NCBI GenBank assembly: GCA_011392765.1
Contig: WYCW01000003.1
Span: forward strand, 478,465-542,464
DNA: 64,000 bases
Origin: Candidatus Thiosymbion ectosymbiont of Catanema sp. Cochon2018
GTDB taxonomy: Bacteria; Pseudomonadota; Gammaproteobacteria; Chromatiales; Chromatiaceae
Reading direction: 5' to 3'
In this document: positions 4,679 to 40,760 of the stretch, in pieces
Layout of the letters: the number at the start of each line of letters is the position of its first letter
Numbering within the stretch: position 1 is the first letter of the stretch
Position numbers and translations under genes: made by a program
Notes under the pieces: generated by a model
What the model saw: the letters and a program-made list of their open reading frames with translations, nothing else
Databases searched by the model: none
Told to the model about the DNA's origin: nothing

Positions 4679-5280
4679 GGAATCATTTTTTTCCGCTTTT
4701 TCCGCAAAGGAACGCCAATCAACGCAAATTGGTCGCAATAGGTCACATTCTATTTTTTGTCCACAGATTACGCAGATTCTCACAGATTATTTTGTTTTTA
4801 ATCTGCGAAAATCTGCGTAATCTGCGGATAGATCAAAGCGACCGGATCATTTTTCCCATTTTCTGTCCACAGATTACGCAGATTCCCACAGATTATTTTG
4901 TTTTTAATCTGCGGAAATCTGCGTAATCTGCGTAATCTGCGGATAGATCAAAGCGACCGGATCATTTTTCCCATTTTCTGTCCACAGATTACGCAGATTC
5001 TCACAGATTGTTTTGTTTTTAATCTGCGAAAATCTGTGTAATCTGCGGATAGATCAAAGCGACCGGATCATTTTTCCCATTTTCTGTCCACAGATTACGC
5101 AGATTCTCACAGATTATTTTGTTTTTAATCTGCGAAAATCTGCGTAATCTGCGGATAGATCAAAGCGACCGGATCATTTTTCCTATCTTCTGTCCATAGA
5201 TTACGCAAAGTATCACAGATTGTTTCGTTATCATGACGCTTCTTGATTCATTTGCGTTGATTTGCGTTCATTTGCGGCTA
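4679..5280. repeat. 106-bp tandem repeat array (about 4.4 units), each unit a hairpin
   Basis: Units begin TGTCCACAGATTACGCAGAT at 4758, 4864, 4979, 5085 and (diverged) 5191. Spacings are 106, 115, 106 and 106; the long one carries an extra 9-bp GTAATCTGC. Each unit is an inverted repeat (CAGATTACGCAGATT...AATCTGCGTAATCTG around a T-rich loop) followed by GATCAAAGCGACCGGATCAT. The flanks (4700-4735 and 5250-5280) carry AACGCAAAT/GATTTGCG motifs shared with 61255-61352. No gene is seen in this 620-bp gap between the kinase and the convergent Aas-like gene. Confidence 0.9.
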
Positions 5281-5284
5281 ACTT

Positions 5285-8200
5285 TTAGGTGGCGAGCGCC
5301 AATTTCCTGGCCCCGGAGAAGTCGGTTTTTCCACTGCCGAGCTTGGGGACCTGCTCCACCCGCCGGATCTCGGCGGGGATGGTAAGCGGATTCAGACCGG
5401 CATCGATCAAGGTCTTGCGCAACCCGTCCGGGTCCAGGTCGACCGCGATCAGCAGGATAATCCGCTCACCCTTCTTCGGGTCCGGGACATTGACGGCCAC
5501 CAGGTCCAGCTCCGGTTCAGCAAGCACCTGCCGGACCTGTTCCTCGACCTGGGTCAGACTGACCATTTCACCCCCCAGCTTGGCGAACCGGCTGTAGCGA
5601 TCGACGATGGTCAGGAAGCCGTCCCGGTCCAGACGGCCCTTGTCGCCGGTCTTGTACCAGCGGCGGCCGTCGAGCTCGACAATGGCCTCGGCAGTTTTTT
5701 CACGGGCATCGAGATAGCCCTTCATCACTTGCACGCCGCTGATCAGGATGAGCCCTTCCTCTCCCGACGGCAGGGTTTCCAGACTCACCGGATCGACGAT
5801 GCGGAAGCTGGTTCCCGGAAAGGGCATCCCCACGGTACCGGGCCTGTTACCAACCTGGGTCCGCCACTCATCGGTGTCCAGGCTATCGGGCAGGTTGCAG
5901 CTCGCCACCGGTGCCGTCTCGGTAACGCCATAGCCTTCGTAGATGGGTTTTTGGAATCGGAGGGCAAAGGCCTCGCGCAAGTCCGGGCCCAGTCGCTCGG
6001 CGCCCGTAATGACCACCCGCAGGGATTCCAGCATCACGGGATGGATGTGTTTATTGCGGGTATAGAAACGCAGAAAGGTGGGGGGGCTGAACAGGATGGT
6101 GGCACGATGGCGGGCGACAGCCTTGGCGCTGCCGAGGGCGTCCGTGGGGTCCGGGTGGCAGACCATGGGGATACCTTCCAGGAGGGGCAGGAAGGTGGTA
6201 ACCGTCAGCCCGAAGGCGTGAAACAGGGGCAGATTGGAAAGGATCCGGTCGTCGGTCTCCAGGTTGAGCATGTCGAAGGTCTGACGCACATTGGCCAGGA
6301 TGTTGCGATGGGTGAGCTCGATACCCTTCGGGGCTCCCTCGCTGCCGCTGGAGAACAGGATGACGGCGGTGTCTTCGGGAGCGACCCGATGATCGGGAGC
6401 GACCCGATGATCGGGAGCAACCCGATGATCGGGAGCAACCCGATGATCGGGAGCAACCCGATGATCGGGAGCAACCCGCTGACCGAACAGGCCCCAGGCC
6501 CAACCGCCGGGAAGAATACTTGCGGCCGCGAGCATCAGCAGGCCCTCGGCCTTGCCGATCCCCGCCTTCAGGTCCTCCATGTAATGCAGCTCGATCCCAT
6601 CCAAGACGTCGCTCAGATCCAGTCCCCGGTCCTTGAGCCTGACGAGGAACTGCCGAGCAGTGATGATGTTGCGGATGCCCGCGCGCTCCATACCCGCACG
6701 CAGGGCCTCGCGGCCGGCGGTGTAGTTGAGATTGACCACCGTCCTGCCGGCCAGAAGGACAGCCATGTTGGCGATGGCCCCGGCGGCGCCGGCGGGCATG
6801 AGGACCCCCAGGTTCTGCGTCGGCGCCAGCCGCCGGACCCGGCGCGCAAACAGGAAGACGGCGGCCATGAAGCGGCGGTTGGTCAGCTCGGTACCGGTCG
6901 AGTCCAGGACACAGGGCCGGCCGCGCTGCCGGGCGGCGGTTCTGAGCCAAGCCTCGGGCAGTGTCGGCAGGGTTCGGGCATAAATCTCCCAGGCGTTGAC
7001 CGAGCGCTCGAATACGGACTGCTTGACTTGCACGGAGGTCGCGGAAAGCGGCAGGGGCGCCCCGAAGGCCAGCACCGGATCCCGCGCCCGCCGGCGGTGA
7101 TTCTCCCTGAGCTTGGCGTTGGCGAACGAGAAGGCGCTGCCCCAAAGCCCGTGCAGATAGAAGGGCAGGATAACGCCCTCCTCTACCCTGGCCGCGGCCG
7201 ACTCGAAGTCCCGTTCGAACTCCCCGAGCTGACCCGTGCGGCTGATGTGTTTTTCGGGGAACAGGCAGACGACCTCCCCCGCGTTCAGCAGCTCGGCAAC
7301 GGTATCCATTGCCTTCTCGCCTTGGTCGGCGGGGATGGGTACTATCCCGAACAAGTCGAGCAACCGGCGCTGGTACCAGCGCCCGTAGCCAGCCGGCTCC
7401 AGCACGAAGCGAACCGGCCTCGGGCTGGCCGTCCGCACCGGTAACCAATCGATCCGGGAGACGTGATTACCCAGCAGGAGTACCCCTCCCCGGGGCGGCA
7501 TGTTCGCACGCCCGATCACTTTTAACCGGTAGCGGAGCGCAAGGATGCGTTCTGCCAGGAAACGCGCCCAGGACCGGGGCAGCCTGTAGAAGGTGTAGAT
7601 GGTCCCGCCCAACGCCATGACCCCCAGGGCCTGGATGATGGGAAGGCTGCCGCTCTCCAGCCGGGCGGCCGCTACCGTCAGCCCCAAAAAGGCCAGCATC
7701 ACAATGTGTTGCACGAAATTATTGGCGGCCAGAACGCGGCCCAGCCCCGAAGCCTCGGCACGGAGCTGGATCAGCGCATTCAAAGGCACCAGGAACAGCC
7801 CACCCATGATGCCGATCACCAGAAAATCCAAGGCCATGGTCCAAACCGAGGGCAGGCCCGGCAGCAGGAACAAGCCGACGGCGATGCCCAGGGCGCCGAT
7901 GGGAACCAATCCCGTCTCTATATGGCCGCGGGACACCCTGCCCGCGATGACCGAGCCCAGGGCGATACCGATGCCGGAGCAGGCCATCGCGCCCTGGATC
8001 GCTACTGTATTGGTCGCCCCCAGGGTCTCCTTGGCAAAGGCAGGAAAGGTCGCGACCATCACCTGCGCGATGGCCCAAAAGCCCGCCAGACCCAGGATCG
8101 AGAGCCAGATGACCCGATTCCGGTAGGCCAAACCTAAGTTCTCCATCAGGTAACGACCGGTGCGGTACTCCCGCCAGTCGAAGTGCATAGCCGCGCGACG

Positions 8201-16313: not shown

Positions 16314-16378
16314 GGGCACTTTGAAAAATACGGTTTTCGTCAACCGATGAGTAAAAACACCCATTTTTCAAGGTGCCC
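16314..16378. repeat. Family A hairpin repeat, short copy
   Basis: GGGCACTTTGAAAAATACGGTTTTCGTC at the left edge is mirrored by AAAACACCCATTTTTCAAGGTGCCC at the right. It lies directly after ychF. Longer copies with the same ends are at 24781, 37623 and 40599. Confidence 0.85.
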
Positions 16379-23516: not shown

Positions 23517-23636
23517 CGGCTTGACCTCACATACATGGACCGTGCTCGGCTAACCGCTCTCGCGTTGACTACCATTCTCCAGGATTTGGGGCCATTTGCC
23601 TACATCGCCGCCGAAGATGGCCGGGTAGAGACCTAG

Positions 23637-24780
23637 CGAGACTCTGCCTCAGACCGACGAGGCGTGACCAACCGCACCGAAGAACCACGGATAGACACGG
23701 ATAAACACGGATCACAATCCGTGTTTATCTGTGTTCATCCGTGGTTCAAAGGATTTGCGATTCCCGCCCAAGCCCGTAGGCTGGGTTACGGCCAGGGACG
23801 GCGAAACCCAGCACACGGTATTGCAGAAAAAGCTGGGTTTCGTTCCTCAACCCAGCCTACAACACTTAGGATGATTTATTGATTGAGAACGCCCCCCAGC
23901 GAGGCTTCGCCTCGGACCGACGAGGCGTCCAACCGCACCGAAGAACCACGGAGGCAGACACGGATAAACACGGATCACAATCCGTGTTTATCTGTGTTCA
24001 TCCGTGGTTCAAAGGATTTGCGATTCCCGCCCAAGCAAGAGGCAGAAATGTTTTTATGCAGCGCACAAACTTGACTCATTTGTAAAGATGCGGGTCCCTC
24101 AAGGATCCTAGCGAGGTTTCGCCTCGGACCGACGAAGCATGAAGATCCCACAAGCCCCTCTCCCGTAAGGTCCCATCTCCTACGCCCAACCAGCCGTTGA
24201 AGAGCCAAGGCAGGTCGAGATCGAAATCGCAATCGGGATCGCAATCGGAATTTCGATTTCGATCCCGATTTCGATCCCGATCCCGATCCCGATTTGTGCA
24301 CTGCATAAACTTGACTCATTGGTAAAGATTCGGGTCCCTCAAGGAATCCTAGCGAGGCTTCGCCTCGGACCGACGAGGCGTCCAACCGCACCGAAGAACC
24401 ACGGAGGCAGACACGGATAAACACGGATGTGATCCGTGTTTATCCGCGTTCATCCGTGGTTCAAAGGATTTGCGATTCCCACCCAAGCTCGTAGGCTGGG
24501 TTACGGCCAGGGACGGCCAAACCCGGCACACGGTATTGCGGATCGGAAAAGCTGGGTTTCGTTCCTCAACCCAGCCTACAATATTTAGATGATTTATTGA
24601 TTGAGAACGCCCCCTAGCGAGGTTTCGCCTCGGACCGACGCGGCATGAATTTTGTTTTGTACGGAAACCGGAAAACCAAGAAAAGTACGAAAGGACACGA
24701 GCCCCTGCGGCTGCCGCTCCGGTACGCGCGTCTTACCGCCTGAGCAAGCGACAGACTTCGTTGCCGTCGGTTAAACCTTA
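23637..24780. repeat. Repeat-only block: three family B copies and two GTAGGCTGGGTT hairpins
   Basis: Family B palindromes at about 23685-23750, 23945-24010 and 24398-24463 alternate with hairpins GTAGGCTGGGTTACGGCCAG...AACCCAGCCTAC (23776-23861 and 24492-24580). The linker TTGATTGAGAACGCCCC...AGCGAGG recurs and also appears in the nuoC-nuoD gap. Two copies each carry a TTCAAAGGATTTGCGATTCC tail. No gene is seen over about 1.1 kb. It separates the SbcC-like gene from rpfF. Confidence 0.85.
24215..24296. repeat. Hexanucleotide simple-sequence tract
   Basis: Runs of GATCGAAATCGCAATCGGGA followed by TTTCGATTTCGATCCCGATT: six-base units ATCGNN on one side and NNCGAT on the other, so the tract is also an overall inverted repeat. 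Lies inside the repeat block. Confidence 0.8.
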
Positions 24781-24880
24781 GGGCACTTTGAAAAATGCGA
24801 TTTTCGTCTACGGCTCACCCCAACAATCAATGGCGTAGAGTCGCTTGATTGGTGAAAATACCTATTTTTCAAGGTGCCCT
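24781..24880. repeat. Family A hairpin repeat, full copy
   Basis: The left end GGGCACTTTGAAAAATGCGA pairs with TATTTTTCAAGGTGCCC at the right. The interior has CAACAATCAATGGC and GTCGCTTGATTGGTGAAAAT, which the copies at 37623 and 40599 carry in inverted order. Confidence 0.9.
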
Positions 24881-25013
24881 TTACTTGAGTACGGGCTGGT
24901 CTTGGATTGTCATCAAGCCGTATCCGATTATACGCAGCGGATAGTGCCAGGTGTAAGGCCCCGGATCAACCGCATAATCAACCAATGTTATTTGCGATGG
25001 TAGGGATCTCATT

Positions 25014-25871
25014 ATGAGCAGACAGAGTTACCCCATCGAGATCTCTTCAGAGAATTTCGAGCACATCCAAGTCGATATTCAACCGGAACCGGGGATAGCC
25101 TATGTAATGATGTCGCCCGTGGGGTGTCCATGCTTCTCATTAGCGTTGCTCGGGGAGCTTAAACGTGCTCAGAAAAAGGTAGATGGATATGGCTGCAAGT
25201 ATTCGATTCTTTCGTCAAATGTAAAGGGGGTATTTAATTTTGGCGGGGACCTTGAATACCTCAGTAAGCAGATCAGGCAGAAAAACAGACAGGCCCTATC
25301 CGAATATATGAAGGTCTGTATCGATATTCTGCATCACGAATCGACGGTCGATAGCCGTATCCCTATCGCGGTAGTGCAAGGCGATACTTTCGGCGGAGGG
25401 TTTGAGATGGCTCTGTGTTGCGACACGATCCTCGCCGAGGAAAATGCCAGGTTCTTTTTCCCGGAAAGCAGGTTCAACCTCTTCCCCGGTATGGGCGCGT
25501 TCAGTTATCTGGCCAGAAGAACGAATGTGTCGGTTGCCAAACGCATGATTACCAGTGGGCATGTGTATAGTGCGCAAGAGGTGTTCGCGTTAGGTATTGT
25601 CGATCAAGTGGTAAGCCCAGGCGCAGGAATGCAGGCTGCCGAGAAGTATATTCACAGTTATGAACGGCGCTGCAATGCCTATGACGCCATACGCTATATC
25701 GCCGCCCACGAAAATCCGGTCACCTATGACGAACTCGTTGAGATCGGCAATATGTGGGTAGACTATGCCTTGAAGCTCACGGATCGGGACCTCCGGGTGA
25801 TGGATAAAATAGCAAGCTCGCAGGCCAAATATACTTTGAGAATCAGTCCGCAAGGGTCCAGTGAGTCATGA
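25014..25871 (+). CDS. rpfF: DSF synthase RpfF (crotonase-fold enoyl-CoA hydratase/thioesterase)
   Basis: A 285-aa crotonase-superfamily enzyme that makes the diffusible signal factor, a cis-2-unsaturated fatty acid, from acyl-ACP. The diagnostic segment is GDTFGGGFEMALCCDTILAE and then FPESRFNLFPGMGAFSYLAR. The glutamates at about 131 and 151 are 20 residues apart, like the catalytic Glu141 and Glu161 of Xanthomonas RpfF. The oxyanion-hole region SSNVKGVFNFGGDLEYL is present. It is about the same length as characterised RpfF. The sensor kinase gene rpfC follows after about 110 bp on the same strand. A GATGGTAGGGATCTCATT leader gives a weak ribosome site. Confidence 0.93.
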   Translation: MSRQSYPIEISSENFEHIQVDIQPEPGIAYVMMSPVGCPCFSLALLGELKRAQKKVDGYGCKYSILSSNVKGVFNFGGDLEYLSKQIRQKNRQALSEYMKVCIDILHHESTVDSRIPIAVVQGDTFGGGFEMALCCDTILAEENARFFFPESRFNLFPGMGAFSYLARRTNVSVAKRMITSGHVYSAQEVFALGIVDQVVSPGAGMQAAEKYIHSYERRCNAYDAIRYIAAHENPVTYDELVEIGNMWVDYALKLTDRDLRVMDKIASSQAKYTLRISPQGSSES

Positions 25872-25983
25872 GTAGGTGGTAGCGGCTTATCGACCCGGCA
25901 CAACGCCTTTTGTGCAGGGCCGATAAACCATTAGCTGTCAGGTGACTGACGCGAAGACAATTATACGAGGTTACTTAAGAAAC

Positions 25984-27690
25984 ATGGGAGATAATGGCTT
26001 TTCGGCTTTCTTTGAGCGTATCAAACAGTGCCCCGGTAATGAGCATGAGCAGGGCTATTTACGTGTCTTTCTCGTCTCCATTATCTCGCTGTATATCTAT
26101 GTTCTCGCGGTGCATCCCCAGGTTACCTTCGAGGTAAGAGACAAAGCGGCGGTACAGCAGGCAATATCGATTATCTACCCGATATTTGCCGCTTATGCGC
26201 TGGTGTTCTTTTATTGGCTGTACCGGATGCCGGTGAAGGTGCCGGTACGCCGCATCCTATCGAACTTTATCGATCTGCTGAGTCTTTCCATCGCCATGTA
26301 CCTCAGCGATGACTGGGGAAGCGTACTTTATCCGGTATACCTATGGATTTCGATCGGCAGCGCGTTCAGATTCGGATCAGTGTACTTAGTTGTAAGTGCA
26401 ATCCTCTCTATTCTGATGTTTGCCGTGGTGATATTCACGACGCCGTTCTGGTTGAAGCATCCGACAATCAGTATCGGTATGCTTCTGGGATTGCTTATTT
26501 TACCCCCTTACATCGCCCTTCTGTTAAAACAAAAAAGCGATGCGCTAAGAAAGGCAGAGATAGCGAACTATAAGGAACGCTTTCTAGCTGCGATCAGTCA
26601 CGAATTGCGCACCCCCTTGCAGAGTATTATCGCCTTGTCCGAGTTGTCCCTGCAAGCCGCTCATCGAGACAATGCACCCGACTACATGCACCGGGTCAAT
26701 GGTGCGGCGCAGCACCTGCTTTCGCTGATCAATGATACGCTGGATCTTTCAAAGATGGAAAACGGCAAGCTCATACTCGGTGAGCTTCCGTTCGACATCC
26801 GTGAGACAGTAGCCGCGGTAAAGGCCCTGGCACTGCCCCAGGCTGAAAGCAAACACCTGGTATTCATGGTTAATATCGCAGGCGATGTCCCGGCTGGAGT
26901 GATTGGTGACGAGCTGAGAATCAGACAAATCCTGATCAACCTGAGTTCGAATGCGATCAAGTACACGGAGTCGGGTGAAGTTGTACTTGCTGTTCGTGTT
27001 CTGAAGCTCGACGATGCGTCTGTCCGGTTGCGGTTCTTTGTCGAGGATACGGGTATAGGTATTAAAGCGGATGATCTCGGGAAGGTGTTTCAATCATTCG
27101 TGCAAGTTCACAATGACGGTAAAACGCGTGTCGGCAGCGGGCTGGGTCTGGTGATTTCCAGGCAACTGGTGGAGTTGATGGGTGGTGAGATTACCGTTAC
27201 CAGCGAGTACGGCAAGGGCAGCCGATTTACCTTCGAGGTCGAACTGCCCCGGGCAGCACCGCAGCCTATTGATATCCCGGCACCGGACGGCGACAAAACG
27301 ACCGGTGATAACTTATCCGGACTGCATATCCTGATTGCCGAAGACAAAGCGCTGCTTCAGTTTGTCTATAGACAGATCTTTAAAACCAGGCACTGCCGGT
27401 TGACCATAGTCGATGATGGCGAGGCCGCGCTGCAGGCGCTGCGTACCCAACGCTATGATCTGGCAATACTGGATAACCAAATGCCTTTACTCACCGGCCT
27501 GGAATCAGCGGCGATATGGCGGCGTGAGGAGCAAGGTCCACGCATGCCGATCATTTTGCTTACTGCCGATGCTACGATCACCGATCGGGAAGAAGGTGCG
27601 AGCGCTATTGATTTGATCAAGACCAAGCCGATCAACCCGCCCGATCTTATCAGGGACGTCGAGTCTCTGGCCGGTTCTGTTTCCTCATAA
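25984..27690 (+). CDS. rpfC: RpfC-like hybrid sensor histidine kinase for DSF
   Basis: Start ATG 25984 (GAGG 13 bp upstream) is preferred over GTG 25942, because the resulting N-terminus (MGDNGFSAFFERIKQCPGNE then HEQGYLR) has the length and the H-x-Q motif seen before the first helix of RpfC. Five hydrophobic helices span about 20-185. The kinase core has SHELRTPLQ (phospho-His about 206), N box NLSSNAIKYTESG, DTGIGI and GSGLGLVISRQLV. A receiver follows with Asp about 497 (LAILDNQMPLL) and Lys in KTKP. Xanthomonas RpfC continues into an Hpt domain, but this 568-aa protein ends after the receiver. No HD-GYP regulator RpfG is in the window. Confidence 0.9.
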   Translation: MGDNGFSAFFERIKQCPGNEHEQGYLRVFLVSIISLYIYVLAVHPQVTFEVRDKAAVQQAISIIYPIFAAYALVFFYWLYRMPVKVPVRRILSNFIDLLSLSIAMYLSDDWGSVLYPVYLWISIGSAFRFGSVYLVVSAILSILMFAVVIFTTPFWLKHPTISIGMLLGLLILPPYIALLLKQKSDALRKAEIANYKERFLAAISHELRTPLQSIIALSELSLQAAHRDNAPDYMHRVNGAAQHLLSLINDTLDLSKMENGKLILGELPFDIRETVAAVKALALPQAESKHLVFMVNIAGDVPAGVIGDELRIRQILINLSSNAIKYTESGEVVLAVRVLKLDDASVRLRFFVEDTGIGIKADDLGKVFQSFVQVHNDGKTRVGSGLGLVISRQLVELMGGEITVTSEYGKGSRFTFEVELPRAAPQPIDIPAPDGDKTTGDNLSGLHILIAEDKALLQFVYRQIFKTRHCRLTIVDDGEAALQALRTQRYDLAILDNQMPLLTGLESAAIWRREEQGPRMPIILLTADATITDREEGASAIDLIKTKPINPPDLIRDVESLAGSVSS

Positions 27691-28117
27691 GTGGATAGCG
27701 GGGGTTCCTTCCGGGGCCACCGAATAATAATCACTGCTGAAACCGGTTGCTTTCTATCAAGTTATCATTCGGTTGCCCTGGGGTCCCTCCATCCTTCAAC
27801 GTAGCGTCGAGCTTCCTGCACAGCGATTCCCACCAAGGCAGGGAGAACTCGTGGAAACCTCGCTTGCCTGCCTTTCGCGGTGAGATACAGGCGATCCCCT
27901 GCGACCTCCCGCATCGCCTCACCCCATTTCTGCAATAGGGCTACTCCGTTCTCGTTCGTGAGATGTCGCACGCAGCAGGGTGCGGCATTCCCCGTCAACG
28001 GCCCACCGATACGGATCCTCTCCGTCCGATGAATGAACCTCCACGGCATCCATTGTCGGTACCCAACCCCGAAATATCTCAGTGATGCGTATGGTAAGGA
28101 TTCTGTCTCGAAGTCAT
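27691..28117. other. Non-coding or decayed spacer
   Basis: No supported gene. A minus-strand frame at 27765-28049 has 94 codons (ending AVQEARRYVEGWRDPRATE) and a second frame overlaps with MDAVEVHSSDGEDPYRWAVD, which could be two parts of a frameshifted gene, but neither matches a family I know. Confidence 0.4.
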
Positions 28118-28278
28118 AGAAGACTATCAGGGCGAGCGCGTATAAATTTCTTATCGATCAACAAATTGCTACCAGCTCCCAAGCGCCGGCGCGGAGCGCG
28201 TAGATACTCTGTTCCGATGCAAGTCCAATTTGTCTCCTGATCCACAAAAATTCACCTTCGATACATAAATTAGATTGA

Positions 28279-29271
28279 TCACGCTGCCGTTTCGAGGGGG
28301 GTGTAGAAGCGGCTGCTGTCGAAGGGGGTGCGGTTCTTGAGCATGGCGTGGATGGCGTGCAGGAGCTTGCGCATGACGGCACAGAGAGCCTGGAGCTTCT
28401 TCCGGCCACGGTTCTCAATCAGATGGTGGTAGTAGGCCCTGACCGTGGGATCATGTTGTGCGGCGCTGAGTGCGGGCATGTAGAGCGCGATGCGCAAGTA
28501 GCGGTTGCCGGCTTTGGACAGGCGTGGTTTCTTGTTCACGCTGGTCCCGGATTGGTGGGCGCGGGGATCGAGTCCGGCCATGGCAACCCATTGTTTCGCG
28601 GTCATGTCCTCCGGCATGACCAGGAGTTCACCGAGGAGCTGGATGGCGCTGGCGGCGGCGATGCCGGTGACGCTGACGAGGAGTTCGAAGATCTGCTGGA
28701 GTTCCTCCTCGCTAGCGATGAGGGCCAAGACCTGTTGGCGCAGGTGCTCGATGTTGGCCTCGAGTTGGGCGATGCTGTGGTGCAGCTCGACGATCAGGAA
28801 GTCGGGCGTGGTGGCGGTTTGCTCCGCGGCATGGAGCTGGTTCTTGGTTTGGGTTCGGAGCTTGTTCAGCGCCGCGATGCGGCGGGCACAGGCGCGGATG
28901 GCGAGGGCTAGATCATCGGGGCGTTGCCAGGGCTCGAAGGGCATGCGGAGGGCGAACTCAGCCAGGACAGTGGCATCGACAGCATCGGTCTTGGTGCGGG
29001 TCTGCATGGCCTCCGCGAAGCGTTTGGCGGCCTTGGGGTTGATGACCATGACCGCAAGCCCGGCGTCATCCAGGGCGAGGGCCAAATCGAGGTGATACTG
29101 GCCGGTGGCTTCCAGGCAGACGCGGGTCACCGTTGCCTTGCGCAAGCGGTTGACCAAGGTCTGATGCCCTTGGGGGGTATTGTTGAATTCACGGGGTTTT
29201 CTGGTGCGACCGTCGCGAGCAATGACCAACGTGACGGTTTTGCTGCTGACATCGATTCCGGCAACGTTCAT
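28279..29271 (-). CDS. IS110-family transposase (DEDD recombinase), intact
   Basis: A full-length 330-aa recombinase. The RuvC-like N-terminal domain has GIDVSSK (Asp7), CLEATG (Glu54) and KTDAVDA (Asp96, Asp99), the DEDD set of the family. A coiled coil (about 120-200) leads to the Tnp20-type C-terminal domain with VTGIAAASAIQLLGEL, WVAMAGLDPR and SGTSVNKKPRLSKAGNRYLR, where the catalytic serine is expected. Members of this family recombine IS ends with target sites using a structured bridge RNA made from the IS flank. All key residues are present, so the element may be active. Confidence 0.93.
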   Translation of the reverse strand: MNVAGIDVSSKTVTLVIARDGRTRKPREFNNTPQGHQTLVNRLRKATVTRVCLEATGQYHLDLALALDDAGLAVMVINPKAAKRFAEAMQTRTKTDAVDATVLAEFALRMPFEPWQRPDDLALAIRACARRIAALNKLRTQTKNQLHAAEQTATTPDFLIVELHHSIAQLEANIEHLRQQVLALIASEEELQQIFELLVSVTGIAAASAIQLLGELLVMPEDMTAKQWVAMAGLDPRAHQSGTSVNKKPRLSKAGNRYLRIALYMPALSAAQHDPTVRAYYHHLIENRGRKKLQALCAVMRKLLHAIHAMLKNRTPFDSSRFYTPLETAA

Positions 29272-29523
29272 GAGCGGTTCCTCGGAAGCAAAAAAGGCGC
29301 TAGGATCATGACCTGGTTCCCCGACCCTGGACCCTCGCCTACCGACCTTGTGTATGCAGGCTCACGAGCGCAGCTCATGGCCTCGGATACTCTCCGGTAT
29401 GGGCGAAGAGGGCGGGGAGCCAATCTACGGACAGGCTCAAGGCCTCAGGTTGGGACGGCTTCCCCAGGTACTCTTCATCAAATCCTTTTATACCTCATCC
29501 TTGGCTTTCCCTTGGAAACAGAA
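29272..29523 (-). ncRNA. Candidate bridge-RNA region of the IS110 element
   Basis: In IS110-group elements the non-coding segment upstream of the transposase encodes the bridge RNA. Here about 250 bp precede the ATG at 29271 and have no coding frame of note. They contain several short inverted stretches, for example GAGCGCAGCTC and GGCCTCGGATACTCTCCGGT. Secondary structure was not computed; the location follows from family knowledge. Confidence 0.35.
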
Positions 29524-29668
29524 CATACAAGGTTGGGCAAAGCCGGATCAGGGACGATCCGGCGTGCCCAACATCAGCATTTCGTTGGGCACGGCGCACC
29601 GTCCCTGGCGCGCCTTTGCCCAACCTACAAGATCATGTTTTCGGAGGGATTTATATGCGCTCGCCCTG

Positions 29669-29984
29669 AGAAGACTATAAAGCGTCTTTAACGCCTAGCC
29701 AGGGAAAAACAATCGTCTCATGATGTCAACAGCTCATTCATTGATTGCCGAAAGGCACAACCCAAACCCAATCAAGCGGAAAACCATACCGCTATTTGAA
29801 AACAGGAACAACGGGACCTGCAAAACATTAGTGATCGATACCCATACGGGCACTGAAGGGAAGCCGCGGGTTGGTGGTGAGAAGGGTGTGATAGGGCGGC
29901 TTGTCCTCCCTCCGGCATCGCGGCTTCCCTCGAGTGTCTGCATCGAGAGTAGACGAGTCCATTCACACTGCGGGAGTGACCGGC
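29669..29984. other. Spacer without supported gene
   Basis: After the MITE target duplication the 315 bp hold no recognisable gene. A plus-strand frame from 29720 runs through in a frame different from the Cro-like gene and is probably a shadow. Confidence 0.5.
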
Positions 29985-30248
29985 ATGACCAAGGCGGAGG
30001 CAATCCGGATGTTCGGGAGCAAGAAGGCATTGGCGGATGCGATGGGCGTCCACCGGAGCCTGATCTCGAAGCTGCCGGACGAGCTGCCCACCAAATACAG
30101 CGACCGGGTAACGGGGGCGGCGATTCGGCTGGGCCATGTGATCCCGCGACCGGTCGCCGGCGGCCGGCAACTGGAACGAGACCCGGCCGAAGACGGACAT
30201 TCCGGCACAGTCGGAGCACCACGCACGCCTTCCGGCTCGATGTCATGA
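29985..30248 (+). CDS. Cro-like helix-turn-helix regulator, 87 aa
   Basis: ATG 29985 has GGGAG 8 bp upstream. MTKAEAIRMFGSKKALADAM GVHRSLISKLPDELP is the Cro/YdaS-type pattern: a short N-terminal helix, then a helix-turn-helix with ALADAMGVHRSLISKL as recognition unit. The tail (about 50-87) is Arg/Gly-rich and may be disordered. Such stand-alone Cro-like proteins are usually phage-derived. No phage gene is nearby. Codon use resembles the core genes. Confidence 0.75.
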   Translation: MTKAEAIRMFGSKKALADAMGVHRSLISKLPDELPTKYSDRVTGAAIRLGHVIPRPVAGGRQLERDPAEDGHSGTVGAPRTPSGSMS

Positions 30249-30344
30249 ACGAGGAAGTAAGCTCCGCCACCGGAAGTCGAATCATGCTGACAGATGCTCA
30301 ATATATCGATTTGTCTCGTGAGAGTTTCAAGAGACTTCAGAGCT

Positions 30345-30570
30345 AGGATTCCTTGAGAGACCTGCATCTTTACAAATGAGTCAAGTTTGTGCGCTGCACA
30401 AAAATAGTTCTGCCTCTTGTTAGGCAGGAATCGCAAATCCTTTGAACCACGGAGGCAGACACGGATAAACACGGATTGTGATCCGTGTTTATCCGTGTCT
30501 GCCTCCGTGGTTCTTCGGTGCGGTCGGTCACGCCTCGTCGGTCTGAGGCGAAGCCTCGTTAGGAGGTGTA
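30345..30570. repeat. Family B composite repeat, inverted copy
   Basis: Reads as the reverse complement of the copy at 18106: CAAATGAGTCAAGTTTGTGC, then GGAATCGCAAATCCTTTGAA, then palindrome arms CACGGAGGCAGACACGGATA and its complement, then GTCACGCCTCGTCGGTCTGA. Confidence 0.85.
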
Positions 30571-30633
30571 CAGAGAGATAAGTATGATTTTCTATCGATT
30601 GCCTTGCTCCGAAAACAAGATTATGTAAGAAAA

Positions 30634-30890
30634 TATACTGCCACACGGCACAATCTGCGCATTTCACTCCCTCTCCCTCCGAGGATGTCGCAAAAGTCCT
30701 TTCGAACCACAGAGGACACAGAGAACACAGAGAGGGGGACGGGCCAATTCTCTGCGTTCTCTGTGTCCTCTGTGGTTTAAACTTCATAGACTGGCAGCTG
30801 AGGCCACCGCTTTTGCGACACCCTCCGGCGCAGAGAGGGCGGGGGAGAGGGGGAAATTCAAAAGCTCGGATTGTGCCGTGTGGCAGTATA
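30634..30890. repeat. Nested palindromic element with 22-bp perfect arms
   Basis: TATACTGCCACACGGCACAA plus TC at 30634-30655 recurs inverted at 30869-30890. Within it GTCGCAAAAG/CTTTTGCGAC forms a second pair, and the innermost pair is CGAACCACAGAGGACACAGA against TCTGTGTCCTCTGTGGTTTA. This looks like three small palindromic repeats inserted one inside another. Confidence 0.8.
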
Positions 30891-30903
30891 GAAAGACTCG
30901 GTG

Positions 30904-31287
30904 TCAGGTTCCGGACTGAACCGAAAACTCGGCCGTAACTGCGGCACGTGTCGATTCTATTGTCGCGGGTAGATCTCTACCAACTTCCTCGGCAATTCCG
31001 AACTCGCCTGATTTCAGGGCAGTACCGAGTTTCATGCAAAGTAATTCCAGCGCGGGCATTCCCCCTTGCTGTGCATAACCAACCGTGGCATGTAGCAACG
31101 CGCGGATTCCGGCCGGATCACTGCGATAACAGGAGACATCCAAGAGTGCCGCCAGCTCACCCCCATCGGCAAACGACTCCAGAATTTTATGAACGACATG
31201 GTCCCGAACAGCCGGAATATCATGGGCCATAGCCAGTGCCTGCGCGGCGTCATAATGGGGGATGTTATCCGAATTGTCGATAGCCAT
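30904..31287 (-). CDS. Small Hpt-like protein (degenerate), partner of the response regulator
   Basis: A 127-aa helical protein from ATG 31287. The segment ALLHATVGYAQQGGMPALEL followed by LCMKLGTALKSGEFGIAEEV resembles the HxxKG-x-LGA...L-x-LE-x-A-x-GD layout of histidine phosphotransfer domains, but the Lys-Gly after the histidine is changed to Val-Gly. It may be a degenerate Hpt or only share the fold. Before insertion of the neighbouring MITE its ATG would have followed the response-regulator stop codon by about 4 bp, so the two were once a tight operon. Function beyond this is inference. Confidence 0.6.
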   Translation of the reverse strand: MAIDNSDNIPHYDAAQALAMAHDIPAVRDHVVHKILESFADGGELAALLDVSCYRSDPAGIRALLHATVGYAQQGGMPALELLCMKLGTALKSGEFGIAEEVGRDLPATIESTRAAVTAEFSVQSGT

Positions 31288-31310
31288 ATGGTTATATCCT
31301 GATTATTCCG

Positions 31311-31701
31311 CAATGCCATTAAGTTAGCTGCTGGCCGCTTGTCGTAGGATGGACGTAGGATGCGGTGAGCGCGGTATACCGTAGCAGGATTACACCAATC
31401 CCGACCGCGAACCGCATCGATGGTGCGGTGAGCGCGGTAGGTCTTATCAGGATGACACGACGAGGGGGCGCGAACCGCATCAAGGGATGGCCCGTGCCCA
31501 ACACCTTGTTGGGCACGCCCACCGTCCACAGATGCGGTTCGCGCCTGGCGGTGGTGCAGTCCGGAAAGGACAACACACGCTCACCGCATCCTACGGGCTT
31601 TGCCCAACCTACGAATCGCGCGCATCAATCCGCGAGGATTCGTGTAATTTGTGATGCTTCCTCTCTTTTGCCGGCCGGCAACGCTTAACTTAATAGTATT
31701 G
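31311..31701. mobile_element. Family E MITE, enlarged copy (391 bp), with target duplication
   Basis: Ends CAATGCCATTAAGTTAGCTG and CTTAACTTAATAGTATTG. The flanks GATTATTCCG (31301-31310) and AATTATTCCG (31702-31711) are a 10-bp duplication with one change. It is longer than other copies because GTAGGATGCGGTGAGC hairpins and a family D hairpin (about 31494-31612) sit inside it. It supplies the stop codon of the response-regulator gene. Confidence 0.88.
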
Positions 31702-32400
31702 AATTATTCCGAGCCTGACGCAGGCGCGGAAGATGAGAATATGGGTCCTGACACCGAGAATGGATTTGATCTCCACGATCTTCTTATCAACGTATTTCTT
31801 CCCGGTCGGCAGCACATCGGCGATCTCAGTGGGAGACAATCCTTCCAACAACAACCTGAGTACATCTCCTCTACGCCCTTTAAGCAACTGAGTACGGATA
31901 GGCTCGTTCGAATCGACTTCCAGTGAGTCGATTGCGATTTGGAAACGAGGCACGACGTACCTGCCGCCCCGCTTGACCTGTTCAATGGCCCAGCAGATCT
32001 GTTTCGGCACGGTGCCCTTGTCGAGAAAACCACTGGCTCCCGCGTCGAGAAGATCCTTCACCAACGGGGGATCCGCATTACCGCTCAACAACACGATCGC
32101 CGTATTCGGACTTTGCCGCTTGAGCGCTTCCAGCGACGGCGCATCACACGGCATGGGTCTATCCCCGCGCTTATTCGGCATCCAGACATCGCACAGCAAA
32201 ACGTCCGGGGACGTCTTTCTCAGGGTCCTGAACACCTGGGAGCGATCGGAGCAGATTTGAACCACCTCCATCCTCCCGGATGAGGCCGAGTACAGGAGGT
32301 CGGGAAGCACGTCGGCGAGCAGATCATGATCTTCGGCGATGACGATTGTGGTCTTCCCGGATGTCGGTACAGTACTTCCATTGCCTTGTATCTCTACCAT
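31690..32400 (-). CDS. NarL/FixJ-type response regulator, C-terminus altered by MITE insertion
   Basis: About 236 aa from ATG 32400 (a TTG at 32424 is also open). The receiver domain has TIVIAEDHDLL, phospho-acceptor Asp in VLLCDVWMPN and Lys in GFLDKG. The LuxR-type helix-turn-helix spans KGRRGDVLRLLLEGLSPTEI and KYVDKKIVEIKSILGVRTH. The last residues IIQYY and the TAA come from the MITE end; joining the flanks restores IIRI and a TAA just before the Hpt-like start codon. The change is only at the extreme C-terminus, so the protein may still work. The cognate kinase is not adjacent; RpfC is 4 kb away. Confidence 0.88.
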   Translation of the reverse strand: MVEIQGNGSTVPTSGKTTIVIAEDHDLLADVLPDLLYSASSGRMEVVQICSDRSQVFRTLRKTSPDVLLCDVWMPNKRGDRPMPCDAPSLEALKRQSPNTAIVLLSGNADPPLVKDLLDAGASGFLDKGTVPKQICWAIEQVKRGGRYVVPRFQIAIDSLEVDSNEPIRTQLLKGRRGDVLRLLLEGLSPTEIADVLPTGKKYVDKKIVEIKSILGVRTHILIFRACVRLGIIQYY

Positions 32401-32595
32401 AAATAAGCGCCATAATTTTACCAAATTTTCGACTATACAGGCTCTCTGTAGGGAGCCGAAAGGCGTCTTTGACGCCTATTCAATTTGAACGGTTGCTGTT
32501 CGCTGAGGCCGGAGAAGTTCTCGGTGCCTTCCGGCAATAGTCGGTCGAGTGCTGGCAGCGCGGGGATCGAGCTTCAATAGAAAATATGCCTCTGT

Positions 32596-34422
32596 CTATT
32601 GGTGGACCCGGAAATAGCAGGTCAGTTCGGGCAGATCGACCTCCCGCGGCGTCAACCGGACCCGACTATTCAGCTCGGGATTCCCGCGCAGTCTCACCTG
32701 CGCTTCCAAGGCCAGCTCCGGAATCAACACCACCGCCTTGTGCTCGCCCTTATCGACCACTATCCCCTCTCCTTGCCACTGCGGATCGGCACGTAGGTAG
32801 ACCAGCTTCCAATGCTGATTGGAAAGCCGCTCGGCACGCCGCACGGCGGCGGCGGCCGTCTCCGCCTCGGCAATGCGCGCGGCGACCTGTCGGGCATCGA
32901 GCAATCGGTTTCCGGCCAGCCAGGCCCGAATCTGCTGGTGTACCAACAGATCCGAGTAACGCCGTAGCGGACTCGTCGCCCGGGCATAGCGGGTCATTCC
33001 CAGACCGAAGTGGGGCCCTGGGACGCCGGTGAGCTGCGTTGGTTTGAAACGCCGGCGGTAGGCATACATAGCCGCCAGGTCCGCAGGCCGCTCGACCTGG
33101 TCCGGCGCCGCTTGGGTCGCAAAGGGGATCGGAATCTCCCGTTCCAGGCAGAATCCGGCCGCGGCCTCACCGGCCATGAGCATGGCATCCGTTACCAAGC
33201 CGCGGCTGCGCAGCCGCGGCAGGGATCGAATCATCACCTTGCCGTCGCGCACCCGCACACTGACCTCGGGCAGCTCGATCGCGGCGGCGTTTCGGGCAGT
33301 GCGACGTGCGCGAAACCGCTCGGCCAGGACATTCAGCCGGGCCAGGGGCGACTCCCCGAGCCGTTGCTCGGCCATCTCGTAAGTCAGCCGTTCGACCCGT
33401 ACCCAGGTAGTGCGGATATCGACATCCGTCAGCTCACCGGCCTCCCCGCACCGAAAGCCGAAGGACAAGGCGGGAGAAACGGGTTGCAGACCGAGTCCCA
33501 GACGCTCCGTCACCGCCAGGGGTAGTATCTTGACTGTCCGCTCCGGCAGATACTGATTGGCACCCCGGGCCCGGGCCTCAGGCTCCGGGTCGCTATCCGG
33601 CGCCACCAGGGCGGCCACATCGGCGACGTGTACCCAGATCCGATCGCCGTCCAGGCTCAGGGCGTCATCCGGATCTTGGTTACCTTCATCGTCGATGGCG
33701 TAAGTAGGCAGGTAAGTCAGGTCGAGACGTTTTTCGGGCGGGAGATCCGGCACCGGCAGGTCCGGATCCGCAGTCGGCAACCGGTTGCGTGCCGGGTAGG
33801 GATTATGATCCCGCGACCAATAGCCGACCTGAATCAGGGCACGGTGCGCGTTCTGCACCGTCTCCTGGTAACCCAGGGCCCGGAGAATGCGGCTGCCGGT
33901 GGTCTCACCGAGGGCCAGGCGCACCACCTCTTGCAGGCGTTCCCCATCCTGCGGGGCGGGCCGGGCCCGTCGCAACCGTTCCAGAAACTCGTTCCAACTC
34001 TGCTCGGCGGCGGCCTTGGCTGCCTGCTCGGCCCGGTCCTGCTCCACCTCGCGGCGCGTTCGCACCCGGACCGCCTCCGGGGTACCTTCGAAATAGAGCC
34101 CCTCCGCTACCAACTGCCAGGCGGCCCAGGTCGTCGCCGGAGAGTGCTCGCCGAACATCAGCTCGGTGAGCTCGCTCAGAGTGGTTTCACTCCCCTCCAG
34201 GAGCTCCCAGGCCTCGGCAAGCTCACCCCCCCGCGGGCCAAGCTCGGCCAGGTTATACAGCGGTCCGGGGTGCAACAACCTGACGTCCTTGGGGCGGACC
34301 CGCTTGATTTGTCCGCCCTCGAGCTCGATATCGATCTTCTCACCGAGCGCCAGGACGCGCGCGGGCCGAACCTTGTAGAGCACCAGGCTGTCCGGCCGCA
34401 GGGTGGCTTGATTCTGTACCAA
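32596..34422 (-). CDS. RNB-domain exoribonuclease (RNase II family)
   Basis: The frame opens at ATG 34494, but the TTG at 34422 has GGAGG 10 bp upstream and excludes a Pro/Gly-rich non-conserved stretch, so 608 aa is preferred. The RNB catalytic domain (about 230-530) has YAIDDEGNQDPDDALSLDGD, whose aspartates bind Mg for 3'-5' hydrolysis of single-stranded RNA. HVADVAALV and TRYARATSPLRRYSDLLVHQ are conserved parts. The N-terminal region is not a classic cold-shock pair. It is shorter than RNase R and close to RNase II-like proteins. It is divergent from tpiA. Confidence 0.9.
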   Translation of the reverse strand: MVQNQATLRPDSLVLYKVRPARVLALGEKIDIELEGGQIKRVRPKDVRLLHPGPLYNLAELGPRGGELAEAWELLEGSETTLSELTELMFGEHSPATTWAAWQLVAEGLYFEGTPEAVRVRTRREVEQDRAEQAAKAAAEQSWNEFLERLRRARPAPQDGERLQEVVRLALGETTGSRILRALGYQETVQNAHRALIQVGYWSRDHNPYPARNRLPTADPDLPVPDLPPEKRLDLTYLPTYAIDDEGNQDPDDALSLDGDRIWVHVADVAALVAPDSDPEPEARARGANQYLPERTVKILPLAVTERLGLGLQPVSPALSFGFRCGEAGELTDVDIRTTWVRVERLTYEMAEQRLGESPLARLNVLAERFRARRTARNAAAIELPEVSVRVRDGKVMIRSLPRLRSRGLVTDAMLMAGEAAAGFCLEREIPIPFATQAAPDQVERPADLAAMYAYRRRFKPTQLTGVPGPHFGLGMTRYARATSPLRRYSDLLVHQQIRAWLAGNRLLDARQVAARIAEAETAAAAVRRAERLSNQHWKLVYLRADPQWQGEGIVVDKGEHKAVVLIPELALEAQVRLRGNPELNSRVRLTPREVDLPELTCYFRVHQ

Positions 34423-37515: not shown

Positions 37516-37640
37516 ATGGGAAGAATAGTCACAACCATACATGGATCTCAAACGAGGATACAGCGATGAATCTGGCAAAATACAAAGGAAATGCCGATAT
37601 ATTTGGAATTTTGTCTACAAAAGGGCACCTTGAAAAATAG
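37516..37640 (+). pseudogene. Deleted copy of the aspartic-protease gene plus short coding scrap
   Basis: ATGGGAAGAATAGTCACAAC then CATGGATCTCAAA joins the first codons of the protease gene at 38340 to its YMDLK codons, as if the middle had been deleted. It is followed by a 24-codon frame MNLAKYKGNADIFGILSTKG (37566-37640) whose 3' end runs into the family A repeat. Both are remnants. Confidence 0.5.
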
Positions 37641-37721
37641 GTATTTTCACCAATCAAGCGACTCTAAGCCATTGATTGTTGAGGGGTACTATGGACGAAA
37701 ACCGTATTTTTCAAAGTGCCC
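37623..37721. repeat. Family A hairpin repeat, full copy (inverted orientation)
   Basis: GGGCACCTTGAAAAATAGGT at the left, GTATTTTTCAAAGTGCCC at the right. The interior CAATCAAGCGACTCTAAGCC is the reverse complement of that in the 24781 copy. Confidence 0.9.
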
Positions 37722-40566: not shown

Positions 40567-40760
40567 AGAACCACGGATGAACACAGATAAACACAGATGG
40601 GCACCTTGAAAAATAGGCATTTTCACCGATCAGGCGACTCTAAGCCATTGATTATTCGGGTACGCCGTTGACGAAAATCGGATTTTTCAAAGTGCCCAGA
40701 TTGTGATCCGTGTTTATCTGTGTTCATCCGTGGTTCTTCGGTACAGTTCGTTTGAGAATG
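40567..40760. repeat. Family B palindrome split by a family A repeat, between nuoA and nuoB
   Basis: The left arm GAACCACGGATGAACACAGA (from about 40568) and right arm ATCCGTGTTTATCTGTGTTC (about 40703) would form the usual family B palindrome. They are separated exactly at the centre by a complete family A unit (40599-40697). The right side continues with family B flank CGGTACAGTTCG. Confidence 0.88.
40599..40697. repeat. Family A hairpin repeat inserted in a family B palindrome
   Basis: GGGCACCTTGAAAAATAGGC ... CGGATTTTTCAAAGTGCCC, 99 bp. It is nearly identical to the copy at 37623. Confidence 0.9.

Follow-up and report, generated by a model that had tools for sequence, protein, structure and literature searches.

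The window, a 64,000-nucleotide stretch of a Candidatus Thiosymbion genome that is 99.8% complete, encodes an adjacent rpfF-rpfC pair whose identity as a DSF-type synthase and sensor is supported by trees and motifs, as an earlier sequence-only reading of this DNA had proposed. Hosts of Ca. Thiosymbion (Chromatiaceae) are nematodes, which carry the bacteria on the outside, and gutless worms, which house them internally. Because RpfC lacks a histidine-phosphotransfer (Hpt) domain and the genome lacks HD-GYP proteins, the exit from this pair would be through a separate Hpt protein to a regulator other than RpfG. We propose, with a probability of roughly 0.45, that the RpfF signal is relayed by RpfC to HptL, a putative free Hpt protein encoded nearby, and from HptL to a NarL-type regulator with transcriptional output (Table 1).

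Table 1. Features of the rpfF-rpfC region and of a related locus on contig C9 (positions are those of the window unless a contig is named)
Feature	Position	Strand	Basis or remark
Segment of 9.0 kb, missing from the matching site in G115, a genome of the same genus	23604-32605	.	Comparison with G115
Dispersed repeat units, three to four imperfect copies, upstream of rpfF	23632-24644	.	
MITE-like element with 16-bp inverted ends, upstream of rpfF	24781-24879	.	4 copies in window
rpfF, DSF-synthase-type crotonase, 285 aa	25014-25871	+	Profile matches, PDB matches, motifs, tree
rpfF-rpfC spacer, 70 nt, with possible ~20-bp imperfect hairpin (25884-25929)	25872-25941	+	Fold z only -1.65
rpfC-type hybrid histidine kinase, 582 aa; ~5-TM input, HisKA, HATPase_c, REC; no Hpt	25942-27690	+	Domains, tree, motifs
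IS110-family transposase between rpfC and HptL	28279-29271	-	PF01548, PF02371
HptL, putative free Hpt protein, 127 aa, candidate phospho-histidine H65	30904-31287	-	Predicted fold and residue
Dispersed repeat, ~400 bp, between regulator and HptL	31291-31689	.	93 genome matches
NarL/FixJ-type response regulator, REC and C-terminal HTH-like	31690-32424	-	Domains, paralogues
Regulator-divergent Hpt fusion, one frame	C9:265203-266306		Convergent with degraded kinase gene

RpfF scored 289 bits against the broad RpfF-type model NF006452 (cutoff, 177) and 190.8 bits against NF053515, the strict xanthomonad RpfF equivalog of NCBIfam (cutoff, 550); it is therefore classed as RpfF-type, broadly defined, and not as a xanthomonad equivalog. 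Its best PDB matches were Xanthomonas RpfF (3m6m) and the RpfF-like structures 7zq7, 6dgn, and 5fus. The two catalytic glutamates that the sequence-only reading had picked out (E131 and E151) are both invariant in an alignment of 11 members, and the oxyanion-hole glycines of the GGGFE motif are likewise invariant. In a 102-row tree, the RpfF clade takes in the proteins of the window and of Ca. Thiosymbion oneisti and leaves ordinary crotonases out (97% SH-aLRT), and the ordinary-crotonase reading is rejected on this basis. Within that tree, both proteins sit on a long stem in a 16-row gammaproteobacterial set (96% support) made up of Sedimenticola/Chromatiales, a tubeworm symbiont, and others.

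The five-helix input, kinase, and receiver previously read in RpfC are matched by about five hydrophobic segments N-terminal to the kinase, followed by HisKA, HATPase_c, and REC domains. The phosphorelay residues His220 and Asp511 are in place, and the ATP-binding motifs are kept. A domain scan found no Hpt domain in either the window or the T. oneisti protein, in line with the earlier claim; lacking the C-terminal Hpt of the Xanthomonas form, the protein is classed here as an Hpt-less RpfC-type kinase. Its input domain matches those of kinases adjoining rpfF at up to 119 bits; of 65 rpfF-linked kinases, 61 share E34 and 59 share R41. All RpfC-type input domains are reported to carry a conserved N-terminal glutamate, E19 in RpfC and E8 in PA1396 (PMC6536496); the conservation of E34 agrees with this, and E34 may be the exact equivalent. 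In a 112-row kinase tree, the protein lies among RpfC-type kinases on a long stem whose exact place is not well supported. The alignment with T. oneisti RpfC begins only at residue 15, so translation may in fact start at Met15 (25984).

The closest relatives of the pair are those of T. oneisti (74% identity for RpfF, 78 to 81% for RpfC), in which the same tandem order is found. Gene order was compared across the 66 loci, out of 80 in the named collection, that have a kinase visible beside rpfF. The two genes are convergent in 64 of these and on the same strand in two: T. oneisti has them in tandem with a 4-nt gap, and in Noviherbaspirillum rpfC lies upstream of rpfF. Within this sample, therefore, the tandem order seen in the window is a feature of Thiosymbion. 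An Hpt-less RpfC also occurs in Krumholzibacteriia-type loci, both gammaproteobacterial examples tested (2/2) have RpfC with Hpt, and an HD-GYP gene is present in at least 21 of the 80 loci, a lower bound from a motif search of limited flanks. Against the T. oneisti orthologues, rpfF has a dN/dS of 0.20 and rpfC one of 0.22, close to the value for RNase II in the same comparison (0.23), so both genes are maintained under purifying selection. The hairpin in the rpfF-rpfC spacer is weakly supported, and the short T. oneisti gap leaves no room for a counterpart. A promoter scan of 24600 to 28300 gave no more sites than shuffled sequences, and no RNA families were found between 20 and 36 kb of the window. 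In the literature searched, no paper combined Thiosymbion with quorum sensing.

The absence of an adjacent rpfG or other HD-GYP gene holds and extends to the whole genome, where a profile search returned 0 HD_5 matches, so no RpfG was found elsewhere in this 99.8% complete genome. A single protein contains GGDEF, and its GGDEF-EAL architecture has no PAS match, so no RpfR-type receptor (PAS-GGDEF-EAL) was found. With no HD-GYP protein and only this GGDEF-EAL protein, the RpfG/c-di-GMP output of Xanthomonas is absent. Two Hpt domains exceed the Pfam PF01627 cutoff in the genome, one within a kinase on C1 and one free on C10. The genome search for rpfG and free Hpt proteins that the sequence-only reading had called for thus ended with no rpfG and with two free Hpts, that on C10 and the divergent HptL, and its expectation that output passes through a separate phosphotransfer protein and regulator is supported by the Hpt-less RpfC and the lack of HD-GYP.

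The pair lies in a segment that begins at the left repeats, lies between SbcC-like and RNase II-type genes, and also carries IS110, HptL, and the regulator. In G115, the homologous SbcC-like and RNase II blocks are about 100 bp apart. G+C content is 50 to 55% for rpfF, rpfC, HptL, and the regulator versus 62 to 66% for the neighbors, and insertion in the window lineage is a simpler reading than loss in G115. The locus had been described as isolated and bounded by repeats and insertion elements. The pair is indeed present as described, but its insert also carries a response regulator and a free Hpt. Repeats do lie on the left, and an IS110 with repeats on the right, but these repeats are copies of dispersed elements that recur throughout the window and the genome, so they are not specific markers of the rpfFC locus; the 9.0-kb insertion is the clearer boundary. 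Copies of the MITE-like element lie at window positions 16314-16378, 24781-24879, 37623-37721, and 40599-40697 (three of about 99 bp and one shorter), with inverted ends of 16 bp, GGGCACTTTGAAAAAT. Elsewhere in the window, a 106-bp unit forms a tandem array of 4.4 copies (4752-5229), and 18-bp tandem repeats occur six times, near-perfectly, at 6375-6482 (TCGGGAGCAACCCGATGA), possibly within a coding frame.

HptL and the regulator are convergent with rpfC, 3.2 to 4.7 kb downstream, and the repeat of about 400 bp that separates them leaves both frames intact. HptL was found by eye, by paralogue comparison, and by folding, the PF01627 census having given two Hpt domains only; it reaches the cutoff of no Pfam family, its own score against PF01627 being 14.9 bits (cutoff, 24.6; E = 0.033). 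The AlphaFold model is helical and confident (pLDDT 90.8) and is predicted to have the four-helix Hpt fold, its best matches being the Hpt domains of BarA and of a Shewanella hybrid kinase (Z = 14.9 to 15.0, above the 13 that chance similarity between helical bundles can give). The histidine of the HxxxG motif is H65, conserved in 10 of the 11 HptL relatives; HptL is without the usual lysine of HxxKG. By predicted fold and residue, and not by the curated cutoff, HptL is a putative divergent Hpt, and it suggests an Hpt family too divergent for the Pfam cutoffs.

The regulator has a paralogue on contig C9, 70% identical and fused to an HptL-like open reading frame. The gene convergent with this fusion (C9:266369-267800) is a frameshifted isochorismatase-PAS-kinase-receiver gene. 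Between paralogues, HptL and the regulator show dN/dS of 0.5 to 0.6 and are thus faster evolving. Regulator and Hpt genes are also neighbors in genomes of the family, in several cases with an HK-REC hybrid kinase as the next gene, and both of the cassette-linked hybrid kinases scanned there (2/2) are Hpt-less. In loci L210-L218, the order is response regulator, divergent Hpt, a protein of about 316 aa without Pfam match, and an Hpt-less hybrid kinase, continuing with a protein of about 690 aa that resembles a TonB receptor; the whole set is apparently a mobile phosphorelay cassette. By eye, the regulator-Hpt cassettes of family genomes lie near apparent conjugative-element genes. In T. oneisti, the regulator-Hpt copy is N-terminally truncated and lies between fmt- and rsmB-like genes (L186:3970-4812), apart from rpfFC, which is on a 3-kb contig (3,008 bp); linkage of cassette and rpfFC in T. 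oneisti is unsupported, the contig with rpfFC being too short.

Under the proposed scheme, RpfF, judged by its family, would release a DSF-type cis-2-unsaturated fatty acid, which would be sensed by the membrane input domain of RpfC, a domain matching those of DSF-sensing kinases. The intact motifs suggest that His220 would be autophosphorylated and would pass its phosphate to Asp511 of the receiver, from which it would travel to a separate Hpt and on to a regulator that is not RpfG. HptL, through H65, and then the NarL-type regulator are the strongest candidates, with an output that would be transcriptional rather than c-di-GMP breakdown. The identity of the signal, the phosphotransfer steps, and the RpfC-HptL pairing are all three matters that we infer. 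HptL and the regulator were chosen because of their proximity, their shared insert, the fold, and the association of the cassette with Hpt-less hybrid kinases elsewhere, which make the pairing plausible. Against it, relatives of the cassette belong with a different kinase, linkage is unconfirmed by T. oneisti, and a second free Hpt exists on C10; moreover, the paralogous C9 cassette lies beside a degraded kinase gene, HptL and the regulator evolve faster, HptL has no HxxKG lysine, the promoter scan lent no support, and an additional Hpt-less hybrid kinase is encoded at C1:580955. We consider it possible, and put forward tentatively, that in an animal symbiont lacking HD-GYP, DSF sensing was switched from c-di-GMP breakdown to direct control of transcription by joining an Hpt-less RpfC and a mobile Hpt/NarL-regulator cassette on a single insert.

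The C10 Hpt offers a different route. This free 121-aa protein (C10:429140) comes directly after a LuxN/CqsS-type hybrid kinase with two receivers (C10:429110-431374), whose core matches LuxN; a further LuxN/CqsS-type hybrid kinase with two receivers has its Hpt fused (C1:350763-353357), and the two kinases are a possible second quorum-sensing channel. A working DSF pair could thus pass phosphate from RpfC to the C10 Hpt so that two quorum channels converge, the nearby regulator-HptL cassette being unrelated, much as LuxN, LuxQ, and CqsS converge on LuxU in Vibrio (PMC8895600). We regard this as rather doubtful: the C10 Hpt is about 75 kb distant and already has a kinase of its own next to it, and no regulator was found beside it at that locus.

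It is also conceivable, but unlikely, that the pair is acquired cargo without a dedicated output, the signal being made and sensed while RpfC mainly holds RpfF through its receiver. The pair does lie on an insertion island, the Xanthomonas RpfC receiver binds RpfF in a non-phosphorelay role (PMC4504480; structure 3m6m), and the receiver in the window matches 3m6m_D (E = 1.2e-5); but many other receivers match equally well or better, the phosphorelay residues are all conserved, and the purifying selection includes the kinase. Highly improbable is the reading in which the pair consists of an ordinary enoyl-CoA hydratase and a hybrid kinase unrelated to RpfC. The shortfall against the strict RpfF model (190 of 550 bits) would fit it, but neither of the groupings that the sequence-only reading had named as contrary to its claim, RpfF with enoyl-CoA hydratases or RpfC with unrelated hybrid kinases, occurred in the trees; in addition, the RpfC input domain is common to rpfF-linked kinases, and the pair is conserved in T. 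oneisti.

The proposed relay from RpfC through HptL to the NarL-type regulator can be set beside several known systems. With rpfF/rpfC-rpfG of Xanthomonas the window shares the catalytic glutamates of RpfF, an RpfC-type input, kinase, and receiver, and the adjacency of the two genes, but its pair is tandem where that of Xanthomonas is convergent, its RpfC lacks Hpt, and its genome has neither RpfG nor any HD-GYP protein. A sensor kinase in a bacterium missing HD-GYP is a test case for rewiring to a new output, and a DSF synthase with its sensor would let the bacteria, or the host, read symbiont density. The Leptospirillum rpfFCG genes are unidirectional, and L. ferriphilum encodes the Hpt-bearing part in a gene of its own (PMC8357829); both traits resemble the co-directional window pair and its candidate separate Hpt, but RpfG, an HD-GYP protein, is kept there. 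The Krumholzibacteriia-type loci (L046, L048, L075, L116, and L123) have an Hpt-less rpfC product of about 575 aa beside rpfF and no HD-GYP within the DNA examined, but their genes are convergent and they are distant in both trees. In P. aeruginosa, PA1396 is RpfC-like, lacks Hpt, and signals via an orphan Hpt to the DNA-binding PA1397 (PMC4504480, PMC6536496), the same combination of Hpt-less RpfC-like kinase, separate Hpt, and DNA-binding regulator that we propose; the window differs in having a DSF synthase beside the sensor and a candidate Hpt on the same segment. What would be new here is a self-made signal feeding an Hpt relay in a bacterium without HD-GYP proteins.
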